A stretch of DNA of 64,000 nucleotides. Source: Thomasclavelia spiroformis DSM 1552 (lineage in GTDB: Bacteria; Bacillota_I; Bacilli_A; Erysipelotrichales; Coprobacillaceae). Below are positions 26,232 to 58,451 of this stretch, piece by piece. The translations under genes and the position numbers were made by a program. A model generated the notes under the pieces. That model saw nothing but the letters and a program-made list of their open reading frames with translations, made no database searches and was not told the DNA's origin. The stretch is from assembly GCF_025149465.1 (NCBI RefSeq), contig NZ_CP102275.1, positions 1,984,001 to 2,048,000 of the forward strand. Reading direction: 5' to 3'. Position 1 is the first letter of the stretch, and every line of letters begins with the position of its first letter.

Positions 26232-26879
26232 TTAATATAAAGTTTGCTTAAATTTTGCTATCGATTCGTCTAATACTGAAAAATAAATTGTATCATTATC
26301 TTTTATTTTTGTATCCTTTAAAGGCATCATTGTATTATCATTCCGTTCAATTGCAACAATTTCAAATTCACCACGTGATGATATTTCTTCAACAGTTTTA
26401 TTTATTAAAACCAATGGTGCCTTTAATTTAATTATTTTTATTTCACTATTTTCCCCAATCTTCTTTACAACTTGCAAACGATTATTATCAAAATAATCCA
26501 AAATTCTTTCAACACCTAAATCTGTAATTGAAATAATATGAATTCCCATTGAACGAAAAATACGTGCTTTTGATTTATCATACATTCTTGCAACAACATT
26601 ATTAACATGATAAATATTATGTGCAATATTACTAACAACTGCATTAATTGCATCACTACTTGAACAACTAATTAAAGCATCAGCCATTTTAATTCCTGCA
26701 GCTTCTAAAATATCTTTATCATAACCCATTCCTAACAATGTACGACCTGTAAAATTAGTTCCAAGATTATTAAATGCTTCTAGACGATTATCAATAACAG
26801 TCACATCATGATTTTGATTGTTTAAATAGTTAGCTAAGCGAGTACCGAACTTCCCACATCCAACAATTATAATTTTCAT
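26232..26879 (-). CDS. RCK/TrkA-type nucleotide-binding protein B
   Basis: This 215-residue protein is built like its downstream neighbour: the Rossmann start IIIVGCGKFGTRLANYL, DVTVIDNR, then an RCK_C domain ending in YFSVLDES. Two different RCK proteins in tandem suggest a heteromeric regulatory ring. Its ATG overlaps the end of the ATPase reading frame by four bases, so translation is coupled to the ATPase. Confidence 0.85.
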   Translation of the reverse strand: MKIIIVGCGKFGTRLANYLNNQNHDVTVIDNRLEAFNNLGTNFTGRTLLGMGYDKDILEAAGIKMADALISCSSSDAINAVVSNIAHNIYHVNNVVARMYDKSKARIFRSMGIHIISITDLGVERILDYFDNNRLQVVKKIGENSEIKIIKLKAPLVLINKTVEEISSRGEFEIVAIERNDNTMMPLKDTKIKDNDTIYFSVLDESIAKFKQTLY

Positions 26880-28537
26880 TTTTTTACACCCTTTCTTTTA
26901 TGTCTATTTCTAATTATTTTTTTTCTTAATTCTTCAATTGCAAAAACTACAAAAGGTATTGGTAATGCATAAAGCCATTCGATTATTCCAATTGGTGATG
27001 TATTAAATACATTATTTAATATAGGAATATATATTATTGCTATCAAAATCAAAAATTCAACGACTAGTCCTAAATTAATATATTTATTTGTAAAAATACC
27101 ACGTTTAAATACAGATTCACTTTCAGTACGGTTATTCATTACCATTCCCATTTGAGCAAATACAACTCCAACTAACATCATTGTTGTTGCTTTATAATAA
27201 ATTGTACTACCTTCCATTGCTAGCGGTTTTTGAGGCCAACCATTTAAGTAATTAACTAAGAAATATCCCCCTAAAGCAAATAATGTGATTAATAATCCAT
27301 ACCATATAAAACCTACTAAAATAACTTTTTTATTAAGTAAACGTTCATTAACCTTACGAGGTGGTTGATTCATAATATTATCTTCTGGAAGTTCAGCACC
27401 TAAACCTAGTGCAGGAATCATATCAGTACCAATATCAATTGTTAAAATTTGCATAATTGTAAGTGGCATTGGCACTAAACCACCCGAAAATAAATATAAT
27501 GCTGGTGCGGCCGCTTCTGGAGTATTACTATCAAAAATATAACGTAAGAATTTTCGAATATTATTATATACTGCTCTTCCTTCTTCAATTGCTTTTACAA
27601 TTGATGCAAAATTATCATCAGTTAAAATCATATCAGCAGCTTCTTTAGCAACATCAGTTCCAGTAATTCCCATTGCAACACCAATATCTGCTTTCTTTAA
27701 AGCTGGTGAATCATTAACACCATCTCCAGTAACAGCAACAATATTTCCCATTTCCTGTAAAGCACAAACAATTCGATATTTTTGATCTGGTGCCATTCGA
27801 GCAAAAACAACTTCACCTTTAAGTACTTCTTTTAGCTCTTCATCATTCATGTTACTTAATTCTACACCTGAAATAATTTTTGCATCATTACTTCTGATGA
27901 TTCCAATTTTACGTGCAATACTTTCTGCTGTTAATCCATAATCACCTGTGATCATAACTATTTTAATACCCGCACTGTGACATAATTCTACTGCCTCTTT
28001 CACTTCTTTTCGAGGTGGATCTTGCATTGCAATTAAACCCAAAAATGTTAAATCTTTTTCAATTACTTCTGGACTATAATCTCTAATTGAACTTGGTAAA
28101 TCTTTATCCTGAGGTTTTAATGTTCGATACGCAACTGCTAATACTCTTAAACCTTCGCGAGCATACATATCATTAGCCTTCATAATATTTATACGATCTT
28201 CATCACTAATTGCTCTGGCTTTTCCTTGAAAACAATGAGTACATAATTCCATTACTTCTTTTGGTGACCCTTTAACAAAAGCAATTCGCTGACTACCTTC
28301 AAATGGTTCTTTCAACTGATGAATAGTTGTCATCCTCTTTCTTCTCGATTCAAATGGTAATTCTAAAATTCGGGGATAATAACTATTTAACTTATCCAAA
28401 TCTATTTTTCCTTTTCGAGCAACAACTTCTAAACATGCCTCAGTTGGATCCCCTAAAACAGTATAGCGTCCATTGATACTATCTTTTTCAGGTGCGATTA
28501 ATTTTGCATTCGAACATAAAACAGCACCACTTAACAA
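26876..28537 (-). CDS. P-type cation ATPase, C-terminal fragment (frameshifted gene)
   Basis: This frame of 553 codons opens with a TTG and no ribosome binding site. It carries the nucleotide-binding domain (GDPTEACLEV, FVKGSPKEV), the hinge MITGDYGLTA and VVAVTGDGVNDSPALKKADIGVAMG, and then six membrane segments (PLTIMQILTIDIGTDMIPALGLG). It is the second half of a P2-type (Ca2+-ATPase-like) pump whose first half ends six bases upstream in another frame. It needs an upstream frame correction to be made as a pump. Confidence 0.85.
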   Translation of the reverse strand: MLSGAVLCSNAKLIAPEKDSINGRYTVLGDPTEACLEVVARKGKIDLDKLNSYYPRILELPFESRRKRMTTIHQLKEPFEGSQRIAFVKGSPKEVMELCTHCFQGKARAISDEDRINIMKANDMYAREGLRVLAVAYRTLKPQDKDLPSSIRDYSPEVIEKDLTFLGLIAMQDPPRKEVKEAVELCHSAGIKIVMITGDYGLTAESIARKIGIIRSNDAKIISGVELSNMNDEELKEVLKGEVVFARMAPDQKYRIVCALQEMGNIVAVTGDGVNDSPALKKADIGVAMGITGTDVAKEAADMILTDDNFASIVKAIEEGRAVYNNIRKFLRYIFDSNTPEAAAPALYLFSGGLVPMPLTIMQILTIDIGTDMIPALGLGAELPEDNIMNQPPRKVNERLLNKKVILVGFIWYGLLITLFALGGYFLVNYLNGWPQKPLAMEGSTIYYKATTMMLVGVVFAQMGMVMNNRTESESVFKRGIFTNKYINLGLVVEFLILIAIIYIPILNNVFNTSPIGIIEWLYALPIPFVVFAIEELRKKIIRNRHKRKGVKK

Positions 28538-28542
28538 TAAAT

Positions 28543-29700
28543 TTAAACTATTACTTTTTTAGCATCTATTTCTTGATTACCATTATAAATTTTTCCTATT
28601 GGTGCATATCCTTCACCACTAACATCCATTTGACAATCAACTGTCCATAAATGATTAACCGTCATTTCATTTTGAGTTAATGTTCCTGTTTTATCAGAAC
28701 ATATAACATTAGTACATCCTAATGTTTCAACTGCAGATAATTTTTTAACTAATGCATTTTCTTTAGCCATTCGTTGTACTGATAAGGCTAATGATAATGT
28801 AACAGCTGGTAATAACCCTTCAGGAATAAAAGCAACGATCATACCCAAAGCAAAAATAAATGATTCTAATAAGGGATCTTTGATAATAAAAATTGCAATT
28901 AACATAAAGGCTATTCCTATGCTTAAAGCAATAATTGCTATTTGCTTTGTTAAAACATTCAATTCCTTTTGTAAAGGTGATAATGTTTTTTCAGTATTTT
29001 GTGTTAAATCAGCAATTTTTCCAAATTCACTATTCATCCCAGTAGCAACAACGACACAATGACATGTTCCTGAAGCAACTGTTGTACCTGTAAAAATCAT
29101 ATTTTCAGCTTCAAGGTATGAAACTTCTTCTTTTAAAGCTTCAAAATTTTTTCTAATTGGGTTACTTTCTCCTGTCAAAGTAGATTGATCAACTTGAAAA
29201 TCACTACAACGCAAAATTCTTGCATCCCCGCAAATACGATCACCTTCTTCTAAAATCATTATATCACCAGGAACAATTTCTTCTGCTAAAATTTTTACTT
29301 CTTTACCATTTCTAACAACACGAGCATATGAAGGCATCATTTTTTGCAATGCATTGGTTGCCTTTTCAGCTTTAAATTCTTGAAAAAAAGAAAAAAATCC
29401 ATTAATTAAATTTACACAAAAAATTGCTATTCCTAATTCTATAGTTCCTGACAAAATTGCAAGTAAACCACTACCCCATAAAAGTAATGCCATTAAGCTA
29501 GTAAAATTTGAAAATAATTTTTTAATCATCGGTGTTTCTTTTTTACTAGCTATTTCATTTTTACCATACTTTTCAATTCGTTCTTTTACTTGAACTTCTG
29601 ATAAACCTTCCATGCTACTATTCATTAAAGTATAAGCTTCAACAGGTGTCAGGTACATTATTTGATGATCATTAAATTTATTATTTTTATTCATATTCAT
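28543..29700 (-). CDS. P-type cation ATPase, N-terminal fragment (frameshifted gene)
   Basis: These 385 codons hold the cation-ATPase N-domain, the first membrane pair, the actuator domain with LTGESNPI, PEGLLPA in the M4 metal site and the phosphorylation motif ICSDKTGTLTQ. The frame ends DAKKVIV-stop. A run of six A within GCTAAAAAAGT is the likely site of the shift: one extra A would continue as SNSLNLLLSGAVLCSN into the downstream fragment. This is either an inactivating one-base loss or a sequence error. The phase is wrong for a classical A AAA AAG slip. Confidence 0.85.
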   Translation of the reverse strand: MNMNKNNKFNDHQIMYLTPVEAYTLMNSSMEGLSEVQVKERIEKYGKNEIASKKETPMIKKLFSNFTSLMALLLWGSGLLAILSGTIELGIAIFCVNLINGFFSFFQEFKAEKATNALQKMMPSYARVVRNGKEVKILAEEIVPGDIMILEEGDRICGDARILRCSDFQVDQSTLTGESNPIRKNFEALKEEVSYLEAENMIFTGTTVASGTCHCVVVATGMNSEFGKIADLTQNTEKTLSPLQKELNVLTKQIAIIALSIGIAFMLIAIFIIKDPLLESFIFALGMIVAFIPEGLLPAVTLSLALSVQRMAKENALVKKLSAVETLGCTNVICSDKTGTLTQNEMTVNHLWTVDCQMDVSGEGYAPIGKIYNGNQEIDAKKVIV

Positions 29701-44837: not shown

Positions 44838-44930
44838 ATATAATATTTCATTAAAAATATTCAATCTAATTCATATAATTTAATAGCTTAAATTATTAAA
44901 AAAATTTTAGTAAAATTAAATAATTTATGC

Positions 44931-45050
44931 TATAATATTTTGCTGAAAGAAGGTGTTATTATGTCCCCTGAGCCCGAGCAGGAATATTTCAAACAATTAA
45001 ATAATAAATTCAGGAGACATAATAATTAGTCTCCTGAAGTAAGGAGGCTA
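44931..45050 (+). promoter_or_regulatory. corA leader with leader peptide and two exclusive hairpins
   Basis: An extended -10 box (TGCTATAAT; TATAAT at 44931-44936) starts a leader holding a 22-codon ORF (44961-45029). Hairpin A is TTCAGGAGAC (45009-45018) with GTCTCCTGAA (45029-45038), a perfect 10-bp stem. Hairpin B is TAGTCTCCT (45027-45035) with AGGAGGCTA (45042-45050), 9 bp with one G-U. Hairpin B buries the corA ribosome binding site. The two share 45029-45035 and cannot coexist. A ribosome that finishes the ORF unfolds A and favours B (corA off); early drop-off leaves A and frees the site (corA on). Confidence 0.7.
44961..45029 (+). CDS. 22-residue Pro/Glu-rich leader peptide of corA
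   Basis: ATG at 44961 follows AAGAAGGTG at a suitable distance. The peptide starts MSPEPEQEYFKQ, continues LNNKFRRHNN and stops with TAG at 45027-45029, inside the regulatory hairpins. Alternating Pro and Glu codons right after the start are the kind of sequence known to destabilise translating ribosomes when Mg2+ is low, as in enterobacterial mgtL. It is not membrane-like and has no other apparent role. Confidence 0.65.
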   Translation: MSPEPEQEYFKQLNNKFRRHNN

Positions 45051-45052
45051 AT

Positions 45053-46003
45053 ATGATAGAATTCTACAAAACTTATGATAATATAACAAAAAAAATATCA
45101 ACTCCTGAAATAGGATGTTGGATCAATGTAGTATCTCCAAATGAAGAAGAAAAGAATTTTTTGATTGAAGAAATCGGCATTTTACCAGAATTCATAAATT
45201 CTTCATTAGACCCTGAAGAAAGTTCACATATTGATTATGATGAAGATTATAATCAAAAGTTAGTTATTGTTGATTATCCTAGTGCTGAAGAAAACGAAGT
45301 AAGCTATGATGATGATAAATTGCTTCAATATACAACTTTGCCTTTAGGTATTGTTATTATGAAAGGATATGTCATTACAATCTCTTTATATGATAATTTA
45401 TGTATCGATGATATGGTTCAAGGTAAAGTACGTGGAATTAATACTACTTTGAAAACTAGATTTTTGTTACTTTTATTATTAAGAATTTCACAACGATATT
45501 TAATTTATCTAAGACAAATTGATCGCATTTCACTTAGAACCGAACAAAGTTTGCATAAATCTATGCAAAATAAAGAGTTAATTCAAATGTTAGGATTAGA
45601 AAAATCATTAGTTTATTTTTCTACTTCTTTAAAAACTGATGAAATAACTTTAAATAAAATAATGCGTGGTAAGACTATCAAATTATATGATGAAGATCAA
45701 GATTTATTAGAAGATGTTTTAATCGAAATACATCAGGCAATTGAAATGTGTAACATTTATTCTAATATTTTATCTGGAACTATGGATGCTTTTGCATCAG
45801 TTATTTCTAACAATTTAAATATTGTTATGAAAGTTCTTACTGTTATTACTATTGTAATGTCTATTCCAAATATTATTTTCAGTTTCTATGGGATGAATGT
45901 TACTGGTCTACCAATTGCACAATGGTGGTTTCCAACTATTGTTGCTATTATCGCCTGTATTATTGCCACAATTATTTTTATTAAAAAAGATATGTTTCAC
46001 TAA
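45053..46003 (+). CDS. corA: CorA-family Mg2+ channel
   Basis: This 316-residue protein has a large cytoplasmic N-terminal domain, a long stalk helix, and two C-terminal membrane helices with the GMN signature (280-282; FYGMNV) at the pore mouth. It ends with a basic KKDMFH tail. It mediates Mg2+ (or Co2+/Ni2+) uptake as a pentamer. AGGAGG sits five bases before ATG 45053 and is masked in one fold of the leader. Confidence 0.93.
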   Translation: MIEFYKTYDNITKKISTPEIGCWINVVSPNEEEKNFLIEEIGILPEFINSSLDPEESSHIDYDEDYNQKLVIVDYPSAEENEVSYDDDKLLQYTTLPLGIVIMKGYVITISLYDNLCIDDMVQGKVRGINTTLKTRFLLLLLLRISQRYLIYLRQIDRISLRTEQSLHKSMQNKELIQMLGLEKSLVYFSTSLKTDEITLNKIMRGKTIKLYDEDQDLLEDVLIEIHQAIEMCNIYSNILSGTMDAFASVISNNLNIVMKVLTVITIVMSIPNIIFSFYGMNVTGLPIAQWWFPTIVAIIACIIATIIFIKKDMFH

Positions 46004-46024
46004 ACAGCTTAATGCTGTTTTTTT
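46002..46024 (+). terminator. corA terminator
   Basis: AAACAGC (46002-46008) pairs with GCTGTTT (46014-46020), followed by seven T in all. Confidence 0.85.
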
Positions 46025-46104: not shown

Positions 46105-47061
46105 ATGACAATAAAAAGTGATGTTTTAAAAATATTAGAACAAAATAGAAATATTTCTATTTCTGGTCAAGAATTAGCTAAACAATTAAATGTTAGCAGA
46201 ATGTCAATTTGTAAAGTTATCAAAAAACTAAAAGAAGAAGGTTATAATATTGAAGCTTCTACTAATAAAGGATACATGTTATTAAACAACAATGATATTT
46301 TATCTAGTGAAGGAATTAGTTGTTATTTAGATAAAAAGATGGATATTTATGCATATAAAACAATTGATTCGACAAATACTCAAATGAAAAAATTTGCTGT
46401 TGATAATCATGTTAATTATGCTTTAATTGTTGCTGAACATCAAAGTGCTGGTAGAGGGAGATTTAATCGTAATTTTTATTCTCCTGAAAAACAAGGCATA
46501 TATATGAGTTTATTACTTAGATACGATCAAACATTTAATGATGCAACATTAATTACAATTCAAAGTGCTGTTGCTATTAAACGCGTGATAAAAAAATTAT
46601 ATGGAATTGATACAAAGATAAAATGGGTCAATGATCTTTATTATCAAAGTAAAAAGATATGTGGAATTTTAACTGAAGCTATTAGTGATTTTGAAAGTGG
46701 AATGATTGAAGCAATTATTATTGGAATTGGAATAAATGTTTCTACCAAACAATTTCCTGAAGAGCTTTTAGATAAAGCAACTTCTTTAGGAATTGAAAAT
46801 ATTAATCGAAGTAAATTTATTGCATTGATTGTAAATGAAATATTTAAAATTATTGATGAAGATTTTGATAATGTTTTAAATGAGTATAAAGATGCTTCTT
46901 GTGTTTTAAATAAAAAAGTTGAATTTAGATATAAAGGTCAAATATATAACGGAATTGCTAAAGATATTAATAATTTAGGTAATCTTATTGTTAAATGTGA
47001 TAATCAAGAATATACATTAAATTCTGGAGAGGTTAGTATTATCCAAAAAAATTATGAATAA
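46105..47061 (+). CDS. birA: bifunctional biotin-protein ligase/biotin repressor
   Basis: This 318-residue protein has an N-terminal winged helix (1-60; SGQELAKQLNVSRMSICKVIKKLKEEGY). The catalytic domain has STNTQMK, EHQSAGRGRFNR (biotinyl-AMP loop), KWVNDLYYQSKKICGILTE and GIGINVS, and a C-terminal SH3-like domain follows. It joins biotin to carboxylase carrier proteins and represses biotin genes. It overlaps bioY by eight bases. Confidence 0.95.
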   Translation: MTIKSDVLKILEQNRNISISGQELAKQLNVSRMSICKVIKKLKEEGYNIEASTNKGYMLLNNNDILSSEGISCYLDKKMDIYAYKTIDSTNTQMKKFAVDNHVNYALIVAEHQSAGRGRFNRNFYSPEKQGIYMSLLLRYDQTFNDATLITIQSAVAIKRVIKKLYGIDTKIKWVNDLYYQSKKICGILTEAISDFESGMIEAIIIGIGINVSTKQFPEELLDKATSLGIENINRSKFIALIVNEIFKIIDEDFDNVLNEYKDASCVLNKKVEFRYKGQIYNGIAKDINNLGNLIVKCDNQEYTLNSGEVSIIQKNYE

Positions 47062-47479
47062 TACATTAAAAATGACATATTGTGGTATCTTTACAGCTTT
47101 AATTGCAATTGGAGCATTTATTCAAATTCCACTTCCATATATGGATTATTTTACTTTGCAATTTTTATTTGTCTTACTATCGGGAATTTTGTTGGGTTCT
47201 AAATTAGGTGGTTTAGCAGTTTTAATATATGTATTGATTGGGTTGATTGGTATCCCTATATTTGCTTCTGGTGGTGGGATTGGATATATTTTTAAAGCTA
47301 GTTTTGGATATTTAATTGGATTTATTGCATGTGCTTATTTTACTGGTTTAATCTGTGAAAAAGTTGCATTAACTGATTTAAAAAAATATGCTTTAGCTGT
47401 TTTTTGTGGTTTATTAGCTACATATATTATTGGTTTAAGTTACAAGTATTTTATTTTAAATTATATATCTAATTTTTGA
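47054..47479 (+). pseudogene. bioY: bioY, 5' part (gene split by a Tn916-type element)
   Basis: BioY is the biotin-binding S component of an ECF transporter. This piece encodes the first ~135 residues: LTALIAIGAFIQIPLPYMDYFTLQFLFVLLSGILLG and ASGGGIGYIFKASFGYLIGF are typical. The frame runs into the element after about YKYFILN and stops at 47477-47479 with residues (YISNF) that come from the element. The missing C-terminus is found 6.6 kb away at 54118-54276. Function is probably lost. Confidence 0.88.
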
Positions 47480-47589
47480 TTATCCGCATAAACACTATAC
47501 TTTTAAGCATTTTGAAATATAGAAAACCATTCATTTTACCACGAATTTACCACGATTGAATGAGCCTTGATATGACACAAAAACAACAT

Positions 47590-47625
47590 GGGAGATAGCA
47601 CAAATATCTGTGTATCTCCCGTTTT
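47590..47625 (-). terminator. terminator at the left end of the element
   Basis: GGGAGATA (47590-47597) pairs with TATCTCCC (47613-47620) and T-rich sequence flanks it on the + side. It lies just past the end of the minus-strand HTH gene; the minus-strand T run is weak, so it may mainly block entry from bioY. Confidence 0.5.
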
Positions 47626-47643
47626 TCAATTCATGTAATATGA

Positions 47644-47883
47644 TTACTTCACTCTGATTTCAAACTTCAAGATTGCTTTCATCATTTCTGTATGAATTTG
47701 ACCTTTTAATTCTTCATCAACCTGCATAGTGATTTTACCACTTTCAGAGTGGTAAAACGGACGCAAGCATAATTTACAGATATAAGCGTCATAAAACTTC
47801 AAAATCTCTCTTATGGCAGTTTCATTTCCAGCAGACGCTTGACATATTATTTTTAATGTAGGGTAGCCGTATTCTTTTTTCAT
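47644..47883 (-). CDS. Tn916 ORF8-type helix-turn-helix protein
   Basis: The 79 residues (MKKEYGYPTLKIICQASAGNETAIREILKFYDAYICKL...) match the small HTH_16-type protein found next to the sigma factor gene in Tn916-like elements. It is probably involved in element regulation. It lies four bases after the sigma factor gene. Confidence 0.8.
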   Translation of the reverse strand: MKKEYGYPTLKIICQASAGNETAIREILKFYDAYICKLCLRPFYHSESGKITMQVDEELKGQIHTEMMKAILKFEIRVK

Positions 47884-47887
47884 TAGT

Positions 47888-48307
47888 TCAATTCCTTTCT
47901 TTCAATACTGTTTTTAGTTTTTTCAATCCGTTACTTCTTCTGCGATAAATAGCAGAATGTGATACATGATACAATTCTGCGATTTCTTGGTCGCTCATGC
48001 TTTGAAAATAGCGTAATAATATTACATCACGCTCTTTACATGATAACTTACATAAAGCAACAGCAAGTTTCTCATTTGATATTTGAATTGTGAAATTCAA
48101 GACTTCAAAAGAAATGTAATCACAAGAATATTTATCCTTAGTTACACATTCAAGATTTTTCGTATCTGATAATTCACAGAATAAAACTTCACGTTTGGAA
48201 CGTCTTGCAAACTGTCTGTTCCTGTTTTTTACTGTGCATTTAATAACAATCATCATCAAAGCATTAAACTGTATTCTAACGATATGCTCGAAAGAAGATG
48301 TGTCCAT
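47888..48307 (-). CDS. Tn916 ORF7-type sigma-70-like factor
   Basis: This protein has 139 residues from the ATG at 48307, after AAGGAGGTG. The C-terminal region-4 HTH is clear: LSCKERDVILLRYFQSMSDQEIAELYHVSHSAIYRRRSNGLKKL. In Tn916 the homologous ORF7 promotes transcription of the excision and transfer genes. Here those targets are largely deleted. Confidence 0.85.
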   Translation of the reverse strand: MDTSSFEHIVRIQFNALMMIVIKCTVKNRNRQFARRSKREVLFCELSDTKNLECVTKDKYSCDYISFEVLNFTIQISNEKLAVALCKLSCKERDVILLRYFQSMSDQEIAELYHVSHSAIYRRRSNGLKKLKTVLKERN

Positions 48308-48507
48308 AATCTCACCTCCTTTCTGCAAACGCTGAAATTATATAAATAGGATAATTTGCATTTAGTACATTCCACCCATTTATATCGTTTTGTAAAATAC
48401 AGAAAAGAAGGTATGAAAAAGGCTCGCACAAAACACGAAGTCTGTACGAGCCATGAAACTTTGATTAAAAAACAGGTTATATTTTTAATTTAGTCAATGA
48501 TTATAGA

Positions 48508-56384: not shown

Positions 56385-56529
56385 GTTGTAACAAAATAAC
56401 TTTTTAAGGTTGAAATTCGTTTTCAACGGATTTGTCAATAAAAGTGTGTAAGTAAATTTAATTTTTTGTAAATTTTTTACTGAACACTGATTATTGATAG
56501 ATATTCAAGAGTGCATAAGTTGATTTAAA

Positions 56530-58451
56530 TAGAGTAGAGGGAAAATGAATTATTTTTCGCCCCTCTCATTGAACCGTACGTACGGGTCTCGTATACGGCT
56601 CTACATTTATATCGAATCACAAACTCTTAAGATAGTATTCAAGGGGATTGACTAAACCAGGTCTTTCTCCTTTTTGTATAGCTAGAATTTTGGGAGATAT
56701 GATGAAGTTGACAACATTTTGTCCACTTCTTCTGTACCATCCTAATCTTGTGTTAGCACATTTATAGATGGTTTCCTCATCGAAATTACATTTACATGCC
56801 TTGTTTAATTTCATCAGATTTCTATAAATTGTTGTTGGTATTTTCCATTGTTTGATAATGACACATCGTATTTTATGACGTAGCCATTGTCCAAATTCAT
56901 CGAGAAATAATTTAATGCTCCCTATTCTAAAGTAGTTTATCCAACCTCTTACAATCTGATTTACCTTTGTAAATGTAATGGATAGAGGTGTCGAAACGGC
57001 ATGTCTTCTTGATAAAATTATTTTTATCTTTTCATACAAGCGTTTCTTTCTATCTTTAGTAGGTGTGCATTTCCAATGTTCTCCATTCTTGTAGAATGCA
57101 AATCCTAAAAATTGTCCTTTCATTGGACGTACGACTTTTGTCTTCGTTGCACTAACTTTCAAGAATAGTTTTCTTTCTAGCCATGTTGTCACTGATTTCA
57201 TTACACGATTTGCACTCATTTCACTTTTAACGAAGATGATACAATCATCAGCATAACGTACAAATCTCAATCCCCTTGACTCCAGTTCTTTATCAAATTT
57301 ATCTAAATAAATATTTGATAAAACAACACTAATAGGCCCACCTTGTGGTGTTCCTGTAGTTGTACTCTTTATTAAACCTTTATCAAGAACTCCCGCTCTT
57401 AAATATGCACGTATTAAATGTAATGTTTTACTATCATTGACATGCTCTCTTAAGATTGAAATTAATTTATCATGATTTACTGTATCAAAGAACTTCTCAA
57501 TATCTAAATCAACAATCCATTCATAACCTTCATTTAAGTAATACAATACTTCCTCCATAGCCATGTGAGCACTACGTTTTGGACGAAAACCATAACTGTG
57601 TTCACTAAAAATTGGTTCATAAACTTCAGTAAGAACTTGTAACATTGCTTGTTGTATTACTCTATCGACAACGGTAGGTATTCCCAATGGTCTTTGTTTA
57701 CCATTCGGTTTAGGGATATAAACACGTTTAACTGGCATTGGGCGATATTTTTTGTTCATTATTTGGTGAACAACTTCATCTCTGTATTGACTAAACCATT
57801 GTTCGACCTCATGAACTGTCATTTTATCTACACCCGGTGCTCCTTTATTTTGTCTGACTCTTTTGATTGCGATTTGTAAGTTCTTTTCACTTATAATCTT
57901 TTCCATTAATTCCATTTGCTGCTCCTCCTTCTATTCGTAAATATATTTGAAATCATCCCAAGTACTTTTACCATCTATGGTTACGTTCCATAGTTCTAGG
58001 CTATCCTCCTATTCGGACTATTCAAACATTGCTTATAGTGATTTGCACTCTATAAACGTTTCAGTCCTTCGGCATTTCTACCTACTATGACTTCATCTGA
58101 TTTCTTATGGTAAACCTTTTTCGACCGAGGGTACTATCACTGATTTTAAAGTATACTAGGCTTCCTCGTCCATAAGACCTCCCGGGGTAATTCATGAATC
58201 CTATTTCTTTCACAACGTCTTGATTTACTGTCTTGGTTCTACGTTTACCTTTTGGACTTTAGTTTGTTGCGCAACCTTATCCACCATTTAGCCTCATCAA
58301 GTTTCTGTTCGTACGCTCGAAAGAATCGCTACACCACTTCCTTCACCCATGACATCACTATCAACGGCTTGTGGTTCACTACACTTGGCGGTAACTACCT
58401 ATGGTTGGTTTATCTCCAACTGAATTCATGCCATGCCCGGCACACGCACAC
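56530..58451 (-). mobile_element. group II intron (group IIC-like)
   Basis: The 5' end GTGTGCG (58451 or one of the overlapping GTG repeats) follows a terminator hairpin. Domain V is clear at 56571-56601 (GAGCCGTA...TACGGTTC on the minus strand). A domain VI-like stem (GAGGGGC with CCTCTAC) follows and the 3' end is near 56530. The intron ORF lacks an HNH domain. Insertion directly downstream of a stem-loop terminator is the habit of class C introns. The ~530 bases before the ORF (57916-58451) are the structured RNA domains I-III. Confidence 0.85.
56617..57915 (-). CDS. ltrA: group II intron reverse transcriptase/maturase
   Basis: This 432-residue protein has RT domains with RPLGIPTVVDRVIQQA (RT1-2), YGFRPKRSAHMA, VDLDIEKFFDTVNH (catalytic Asp), TPQGGPISVVLSN and the YADD box (221-224). 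The maturase/thumb domain X (about 290-390; GWINYFRIG...W...RWYRR type) follows. It ends without an endonuclease domain, as in IIC introns. It appears intact. GGAGGAG before ATG 57915. Confidence 0.93.
   Translation of the reverse strand: MELMEKIISEKNLQIAIKRVRQNKGAPGVDKMTVHEVEQWFSQYRDEVVHQIMNKKYRPMPVKRVYIPKPNGKQRPLGIPTVVDRVIQQAMLQVLTEVYEPIFSEHSYGFRPKRSAHMAMEEVLYYLNEGYEWIVDLDIEKFFDTVNHDKLISILREHVNDSKTLHLIRAYLRAGVLDKGLIKSTTTGTPQGGPISVVLSNIYLDKFDKELESRGLRFVRYADDCIIFVKSEMSANRVMKSVTTWLERKLFLKVSATKTKVVRPMKGQFLGFAFYKNGEHWKCTPTKDRKKRLYEKIKIILSRRHAVSTPLSITFTKVNQIVRGWINYFRIGSIKLFLDEFGQWLRHKIRCVIIKQWKIPTTIYRNLMKLNKACKCNFDEETIYKCANTRLGWYRRSGQNVVNFIISPKILAIQKGERPGLVNPLEYYLKSL

Follow-up and report, generated by a model that had tools for sequence, protein, structure and literature searches.

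How a Firmicute might adjust the synthesis of its CorA magnesium channel is the question raised by the corA gene of Thomasclavelia spiroformis DSM 1552, which lies in the 64,000-nucleotide stretch of contig NZ_CP102275.1 analyzed here (the window). The product matches PF01544 with 162 bits and is the only PF01544 protein of the 2.53-Mb genome, in which neither MgtE nor an M-box riboswitch was detected and the model for Mg2+ P-type ATPases gave matches only below its curated cut-off. A previous sequence-only reading had proposed that a short Pro/acidic leader ORF and two competing hairpins allow the ribosome to sense Mg2+ ahead of corA, an interpretation that is partly supported by the analysis described below. 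The features of the locus are collected in Table 1.

Table 1. Features of the corA locus, in window coordinates
Feature	Position	Strand	Basis or remark
Probable extended -10 promoter, TGCTATAAT	44928..44936	+	Sequence; TGnTATAAT-like box, at the same place in most relatives
Leader-ORF Shine-Dalgarno, GAAGGTG	44949..44955	+	AAGAAGGTG invariant in 16 genus/family/order relatives
Leader ORF, MSPEPEQEYFKQLNNKFRRHNN, 22 codons plus TAG	44961..45029	+	Sequence; codons 2-6 conserved
Element 1, ATGTCCCCTG (consensus ATGTCYCCTG, first ten bases of the ORF)	44961..44970	+	Pairs with element 2
Hairpin A (2:3), 10 bp, corA SD exposed	45009..45038	+	Arms 45009-45018/45029-45038; covariation
Element 2, CAGGAGACAT (consensus CAGGAGRCAT)	45011..45020	+	5' arm of hairpin A plus conserved CAT
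Hairpin B (3:4), 9 bp, corA SD hidden	45027..45050	+	Arms 45027-45035/45042-45050
Element 3, anti-SD, GTCTCCTG (consensus YCTCCTG)	45029..45036	+	Common to hairpins A and B
Element 4, corA Shine-Dalgarno, AGGAGG	45042..45047	+	Sequence
corA, 316-aa CorA-type Mg2+ channel	45053..46003	+	PF01544
Likely intrinsic terminator of corA	46002..46020	+	

The leader is only about 110 bases long. Its promoter has a weak -35 and is without listing in a consensus scan; the position of the -10 box suggests that the transcript would start at ~44943, some 18 bases 5' of the ORF. Since a likely terminator directly follows corA, the unit comprises the leader and corA and is monocistronic. There is no intrinsic terminator on the plus strand between 44800 and 45785, and hence none between the ORF and corA, which argues against a transcription attenuator.

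As had been claimed, the 22-codon Pro/acidic ORF is present, with its own Shine-Dalgarno sequence (SD) just upstream, and it precedes a Mg2+ transporter gene. The two hairpins are likewise present and mutually exclusive: A is a perfect inverted repeat, and B, with one G-U among its nine pairs, covers the corA AGGAGG and holds the leader stop codon (TAG, 45027-45029) in its 5' arm. The description of the switch as two hairpins was nevertheless incomplete, given that a third, equally conserved helix had been missed, which joins the ORF start (~44957-44972 over its full extent) to the 5' arm of hairpin A. A conserved CAT that follows CAGGAGR, at or beyond the end of the hairpin A stem on its loop side, pairs with the AUG of the ORF. 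The leader can thus adopt two alternative sets of pairings, of which 1:2 plus 3:4 hides the corA SD and 2:3 frees it. This is the four-element arrangement of an mgtQ-type attenuator, with element 1 in the ORF and the transporter SD as element 4.

The ORF and the two hairpins are highly conserved. Both occur before every named Erysipelotrichia corA orthologue examined (at least 65% protein identity, with upstream DNA at hand), and this named set has the leader in Thomasclavelia, Massilimicrobiota, Longicatena, Traorella, Faecalicoccus, Amedibacillus, Merdibacter, and Faecalitalea. The relatives used stem from unannotated genomes, many of them metagenome bins. In a survey of 60 relatives, the leader was found at all 16 orthologues of 77-100% identity. 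It was absent before the homologues of 51% identity or less in this survey, before distant CorA homologues (~53% identity and less) in a phylum sample, before Coriobacteriia CorA (57-66% identity), in the Lachnospiraceae-type loci L057 and L106, and in L071 and L075. A covariance model built from 24 leaders and searched against 295 genomes of the order matched 43 of them, once each. The two weakest matches, at the start of ffh, were rejected as false; because the other 41 directly precede corA, we consider the leader to be tied to this gene. A pattern search for the same leader at other genes returned only a chance match inside rpoD. The comparison of related corA leaders, by which the sequence-only reading was to stand or fall, therefore found the ORF and the stems conserved.

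The 32 leaders compared are related to one another, so that counts of species are not counts of independent events. In hairpin A, 16 cells are changed on both sides, compared to 4.3 in shuffles, and 90% of cells are paired, compared to 42-54% when the partners are slid; across hairpin A and the 1:2 plus 3:4 set, sliding lowers pairing from 86-90% to about 42-63%. In each of the 32 leaders, the first eleven bases of the ORF find their best complement in the 5' arm of hairpin A (shuffle p <0.05 in all leaders but one, at 0.16). Helix 1:2 is paired in 94.8% of cells, with compensatory double changes at two positions, although the covariation excess of the whole 1:2 plus 3:4 set over shuffles is modest because many of its pairs hardly vary. 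For hairpin A, the covariation is strong. Changes of codon 3 from CCN to TCG or TTA are accompanied by changes of element 2 from GGAG to GAAG or AAAG/AGAG, and element 3 changes too; L062 and L064, for example, carry ATGTCTTCG, CGAAGACAT, and GTCTTCG, and L048 and L049 carry CTTT with AAAG or AGAG.

We then folded the 32 leaders with the ribosome footprint as a constraint, at equilibrium and under one energy model. The measure used was the free energy needed to open the SD, which replaced the probability of a fully unpaired SD, a poor measure in view of weak downstream pairs. Three states are predicted. Without a ribosome, the RNA folds as 1:2 plus 3:4 and the SD is closed, with a median of 6.5 kcal/mol to open it. 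A ribosome on codons 1-7 leads mostly to 2:3 and leaves the SD open (about 2 kcal/mol), and with a ribosome beyond codon 8, 3:4 is restored and the SD is closed again (7-8 kcal/mol); the leader is also predicted to be OFF once the ribosome enters element 2. Shuffled leaders are flat, with means of 3.3, 3.3, and 3.1 kcal/mol for no, early, and later ribosome, and both thresholds were passed by 28 of the 32 real leaders versus 0.6% of shuffles. The boundary between ON and OFF lies at codons 7-9, where element 1 emerges behind the ribosome, and it hardly shifts with footprint size. One leader, L048, is predicted to be nearly open even when ribosome-free. For a ribosome positioned between elements 1 and 2, the modeled 1:2 helix would have to span it, which is sterically doubtful. 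The footprint folding supports the direction that the sequence-only reading had assigned, namely corA on upon early abortion and off upon full translation, and the conserved pairing targets the SD, in keeping with translational control.

Based on these results, we propose, with a probability of roughly 0.7, that the corA leader is a four-element translational attenuator with a nascent-peptide sensor, through which low Mg2+ raises CorA synthesis. The free RNA would fold as 1:2 plus 3:4 and hide the SD. A ribosome on codons 1-7 would cover element 1, allow 2:3 to form, and expose the SD; past codon 8, element 1 would re-emerge and element 2 would then be unwound, so that 3:4 re-forms and corA is switched off. 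The conserved M-S-P-[E/D]-P-[E/D] start appears to be positioned for ribosome pausing or drop-off inside the ON window. In analogy to MgtL and MgtQ, a low Mg2+ level in the cell would favor such pausing or drop-off and yield more CorA, whilst at high Mg2+ the ribosome would finish the ORF and corA would be silenced. After drop-off, the naked leader would refold into the OFF state unless 2:3 persists or another ribosome starts, and the model therefore needs kinetic trapping or repeated initiation. The ORF itself, its conservation, the covariation, and the predicted three-state folding support this mechanism. We infer that the ORF is translated in T. spiroformis and that its motif destabilizes the ribosome, and the gene controlled, together with the analogy, suggests that Mg2+ is the signal.

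The peptide shows where such a sensor might act. It begins Met-Ser-Pro-Glu-Pro-Glu, and its conservation is confined to codons 2-6 (S-P-[E/D]-P-[E/D]), ending at codon 6, within the predicted ON window; pN/pS is 0.22 for codons 2-3, 0.47 for codons 4-6, and 0.88 for codons 7-12. As codons 2-3 are also constrained by the pairing with element 2, only codons 4-6 provide clean evidence for selection on the peptide. Codon 4 is acidic in 29 of the 32 leaders and codon 6 in 21; every leader has an acid at one or the other, as in an mgtQ-type attenuator with its early acidic codons. About a third of the leaders have a single acid at codons 4-6, and the acid content of the motif is lower than in strong destabilizing sequences. 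In E. coli, acid-x-acid with Pro near the start stalls or releases ribosomes, including the EPDP of MgtL, a ribosome-destabilizing motif that is sensitive to Mg2+ (PMC11282234), and high Mg2+ suppresses the release of ribosomes at such motifs (PMC9718836). The uORF of L190, which reads MSASPDPHEQRIRKGK, carries a Pro-Asp-Pro motif two codons further downstream and is a natural variant of the codon window.

The same four-element switch could report, through its Pro/acidic codons, the general state of translation (charging of Pro- or Glu-tRNA, EF-P, or an EttA-like ABC-F protein) rather than Mg2+. The RNA mechanism requires only slow ribosomes on codons 1-7, MgtL also responds to EttA (PMC11282234), and mgtP responds to charged tRNA-Pro (PMC8092293). 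We nevertheless regard this alternative as unlikely, given that the searches located the leader only before a Mg2+ channel gene and that the peptide has just two prolines, which stand apart and give way to Leu, Ser, or Ala in some leaders. Synonymous codons are also freely used: codon 5 is Pro in 30 of the 32 leaders and is encoded by all four Pro codons (CCC 14, CCG 12, CCA 2, CCT 2).

Less probable again is the two-hairpin model of the sequence-only reading, in which hairpin A forms by default and only complete translation of the ORF turns corA off. Taken alone, A is indeed somewhat more stable than B (-14.5 versus -12.9 kcal/mol), which implied that the ribosome-free RNA is ON. It is instead predicted to be OFF, as pairing with the ORF start occupies the 5' arm of A; the conserved 1:2 helix takes element 2 from A and prevails over 2:3 in 31 of the 32 ribosome-free folds, and the two-hairpin model leaves the conserved CAT beyond the A stem without a role.

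Plain translational coupling, whereby ribosomes that finish the leader ORF restart at corA or melt hairpin B, appears more improbable still. The stop lies 11-46 bases 5' of corA, and in several leaders a ribosome there is predicted to place its footprint over element 3 and partly reopen the SD. However, the position of the stop varies widely and precedes the hairpin in L009 and L047, conservation covers codons 2-6 and not codon 7 onward, and elements 1 and 2 would be left unexplained. A metal-binding riboswitch or RNA thermometer in place of the peptide-based sensor is very improbable: corA does have a structured leader here, and the gamma-proteobacterial 'corA motif' is a proposed riboswitch candidate (PMC6429828), yet Rfam scans of the leader at gathering and low thresholds found nothing relevant (neither an M-box nor another Mg2+ riboswitch), conservation is at the peptide level, and the ORF, SDs, and pairings account for the conserved bases, with no conserved aptamer core left.

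The closest precedent for the proposed attenuator is mgtQ-mgtB of Salmonella, in which the 1:2 plus 3:4 versus 2:3 logic was demonstrated experimentally, acidic codons were found to lower translation of the ORF and raise that of the transporter, and relatives were listed in other enterobacteria and Brucella (Choi et al. 2021, PMC8092293). Both systems place a short ORF with early acidic codons and a Pro before a Mg2+ transporter, both oppose an OFF state (1:2 plus 3:4) to an ON state (2:3) with element 1 within the ORF, and both target the transporter SD and not transcription. They differ in the transporter family (here a Firmicute corA), in the position of the leader (at the 5' end of its own transcript here, within an operon for mgtQ), in ORF length (12-31 codons versus 8), and in their prolines, Pro3 and Pro5 being nearly invariant here whereas Pro4 of mgtQ matters only through pairing. 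Because the gene families differ and no shared sequence is evident, convergence is likelier, and we do not claim descent. The view that no such leader had been described for a Firmicute corA holds in the literature searched, outside whose coverage most subscription papers fall; the RNA logic itself, and translational rather than Rho-dependent control, had already been described for mgtQ-mgtB (PMC8092293).

The corA leader also shares the acid/Pro alternation at codons 2-6 with MgtL of E. coli and Salmonella mgtA (PEPE here, EPDP there), at which ribosomes are destabilized in low Mg2+ (PMC11282234); unlike MgtL, which acts via Rho-dependent termination, the conserved target here is an SD. Like the leader, corL of E. 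coli and Salmonella is a short ORF 5' of corA whose translation opposes corA expression, although it acts by Rho-dependent termination, starts with UUG, has fewer Pro/acidic residues, and belongs to a long, different, gamma-proteobacterial leader (PMC11552253). With trpL-type attenuators, the leader has in common that a ribosome on a short ORF selects between alternative pairings of four elements; it lacks their terminator and run of regulatory codons. Judged by its sequence, the corA leader is a combination of mgtQ architecture with an MgtL-like destabilizing motif, now in Firmicutes and previously known in this form from Salmonella and relatives only.

A second, dissimilar type of ORF precedes corA at 17 loci (L096-L105, L107-L109, L111-L113, and L115) of Ruminococcus/Oscillospiraceae-type Clostridia, whose CorA is about 51-56% identical to that of the window. 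It mostly reads M-S-T-D-P-[FY]-G-R-A-E (e.g., MSTDPFGRAE) or M-x-I-D-P-[DE]-G-R-A-E, and codons 4-5 encode D-P in all 17; most have an inverted repeat such as ACAGRCGG...CCGYCTGT, and the corA SD is AGGCGG or similar. In nine leaders folded, opening the SD costs 4.5 kcal/mol more with a ribosome beyond codon 10 than with one on codons 2-7 (shuffles, -0.06 kcal/mol, sd 1.67). The free RNA exceeds the early-ribosome state in this cost by only about 1 kcal/mol, and element 1 is therefore weak or absent. Whether Mg2+ sensing by ribosome destabilization, with mgtQ-like SD switching, arose independently at least twice in Firmicutes (in the MSPEPE and MSTDPFGRAE types) and is general where the M-box is missing seems to us evenly balanced. 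Other short ORFs precede distant Bacilli corA genes in L127 (CorA 52% identical to the Ruminococcus query) and L129 (49%), namely MSSDINRSTLKQLNNK... and a TTG-start ORF with a GTGCCA hairpin, and may represent further leader types.

If the proposed attenuator is correct, ribosome instability on Pro/acidic codons would recur as a magnesium gauge in gut Firmicutes, rather than being an enterobacterial peculiarity, and would act on the CorA channel itself. With its compact leader, a dozen natural motif variants, and an ON window predicted to span about seven codons, the system offers a clean test of intrinsic ribosome destabilization as a sensor in Gram-positive ribosomes.

Three further observations concern the remainder of the window. 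At 47054-48430, a bioY-like gene is shortened to 141 aa, compared to open frames of 193-199 aa in close relatives of the genus. Minus-strand ORFs for HTH_16 and sigma-70 region 4 come immediately after it, which resembles Tn916-like elements; because of these adjoining ORFs, a mobile element was probably inserted at the 3' end of the gene. A cation-transporting P-type ATPase on the minus strand (26876-29700) is split into two adjacent frames of 385 aa (N-terminal and E1-E2 domains) and 553 aa (the rest), and is likely a frameshifted gene. Lastly, a group II intron occupies 56529-58364 on the minus strand, with RF02001 at 58194-58364 and RF00029 at 56529-56603.
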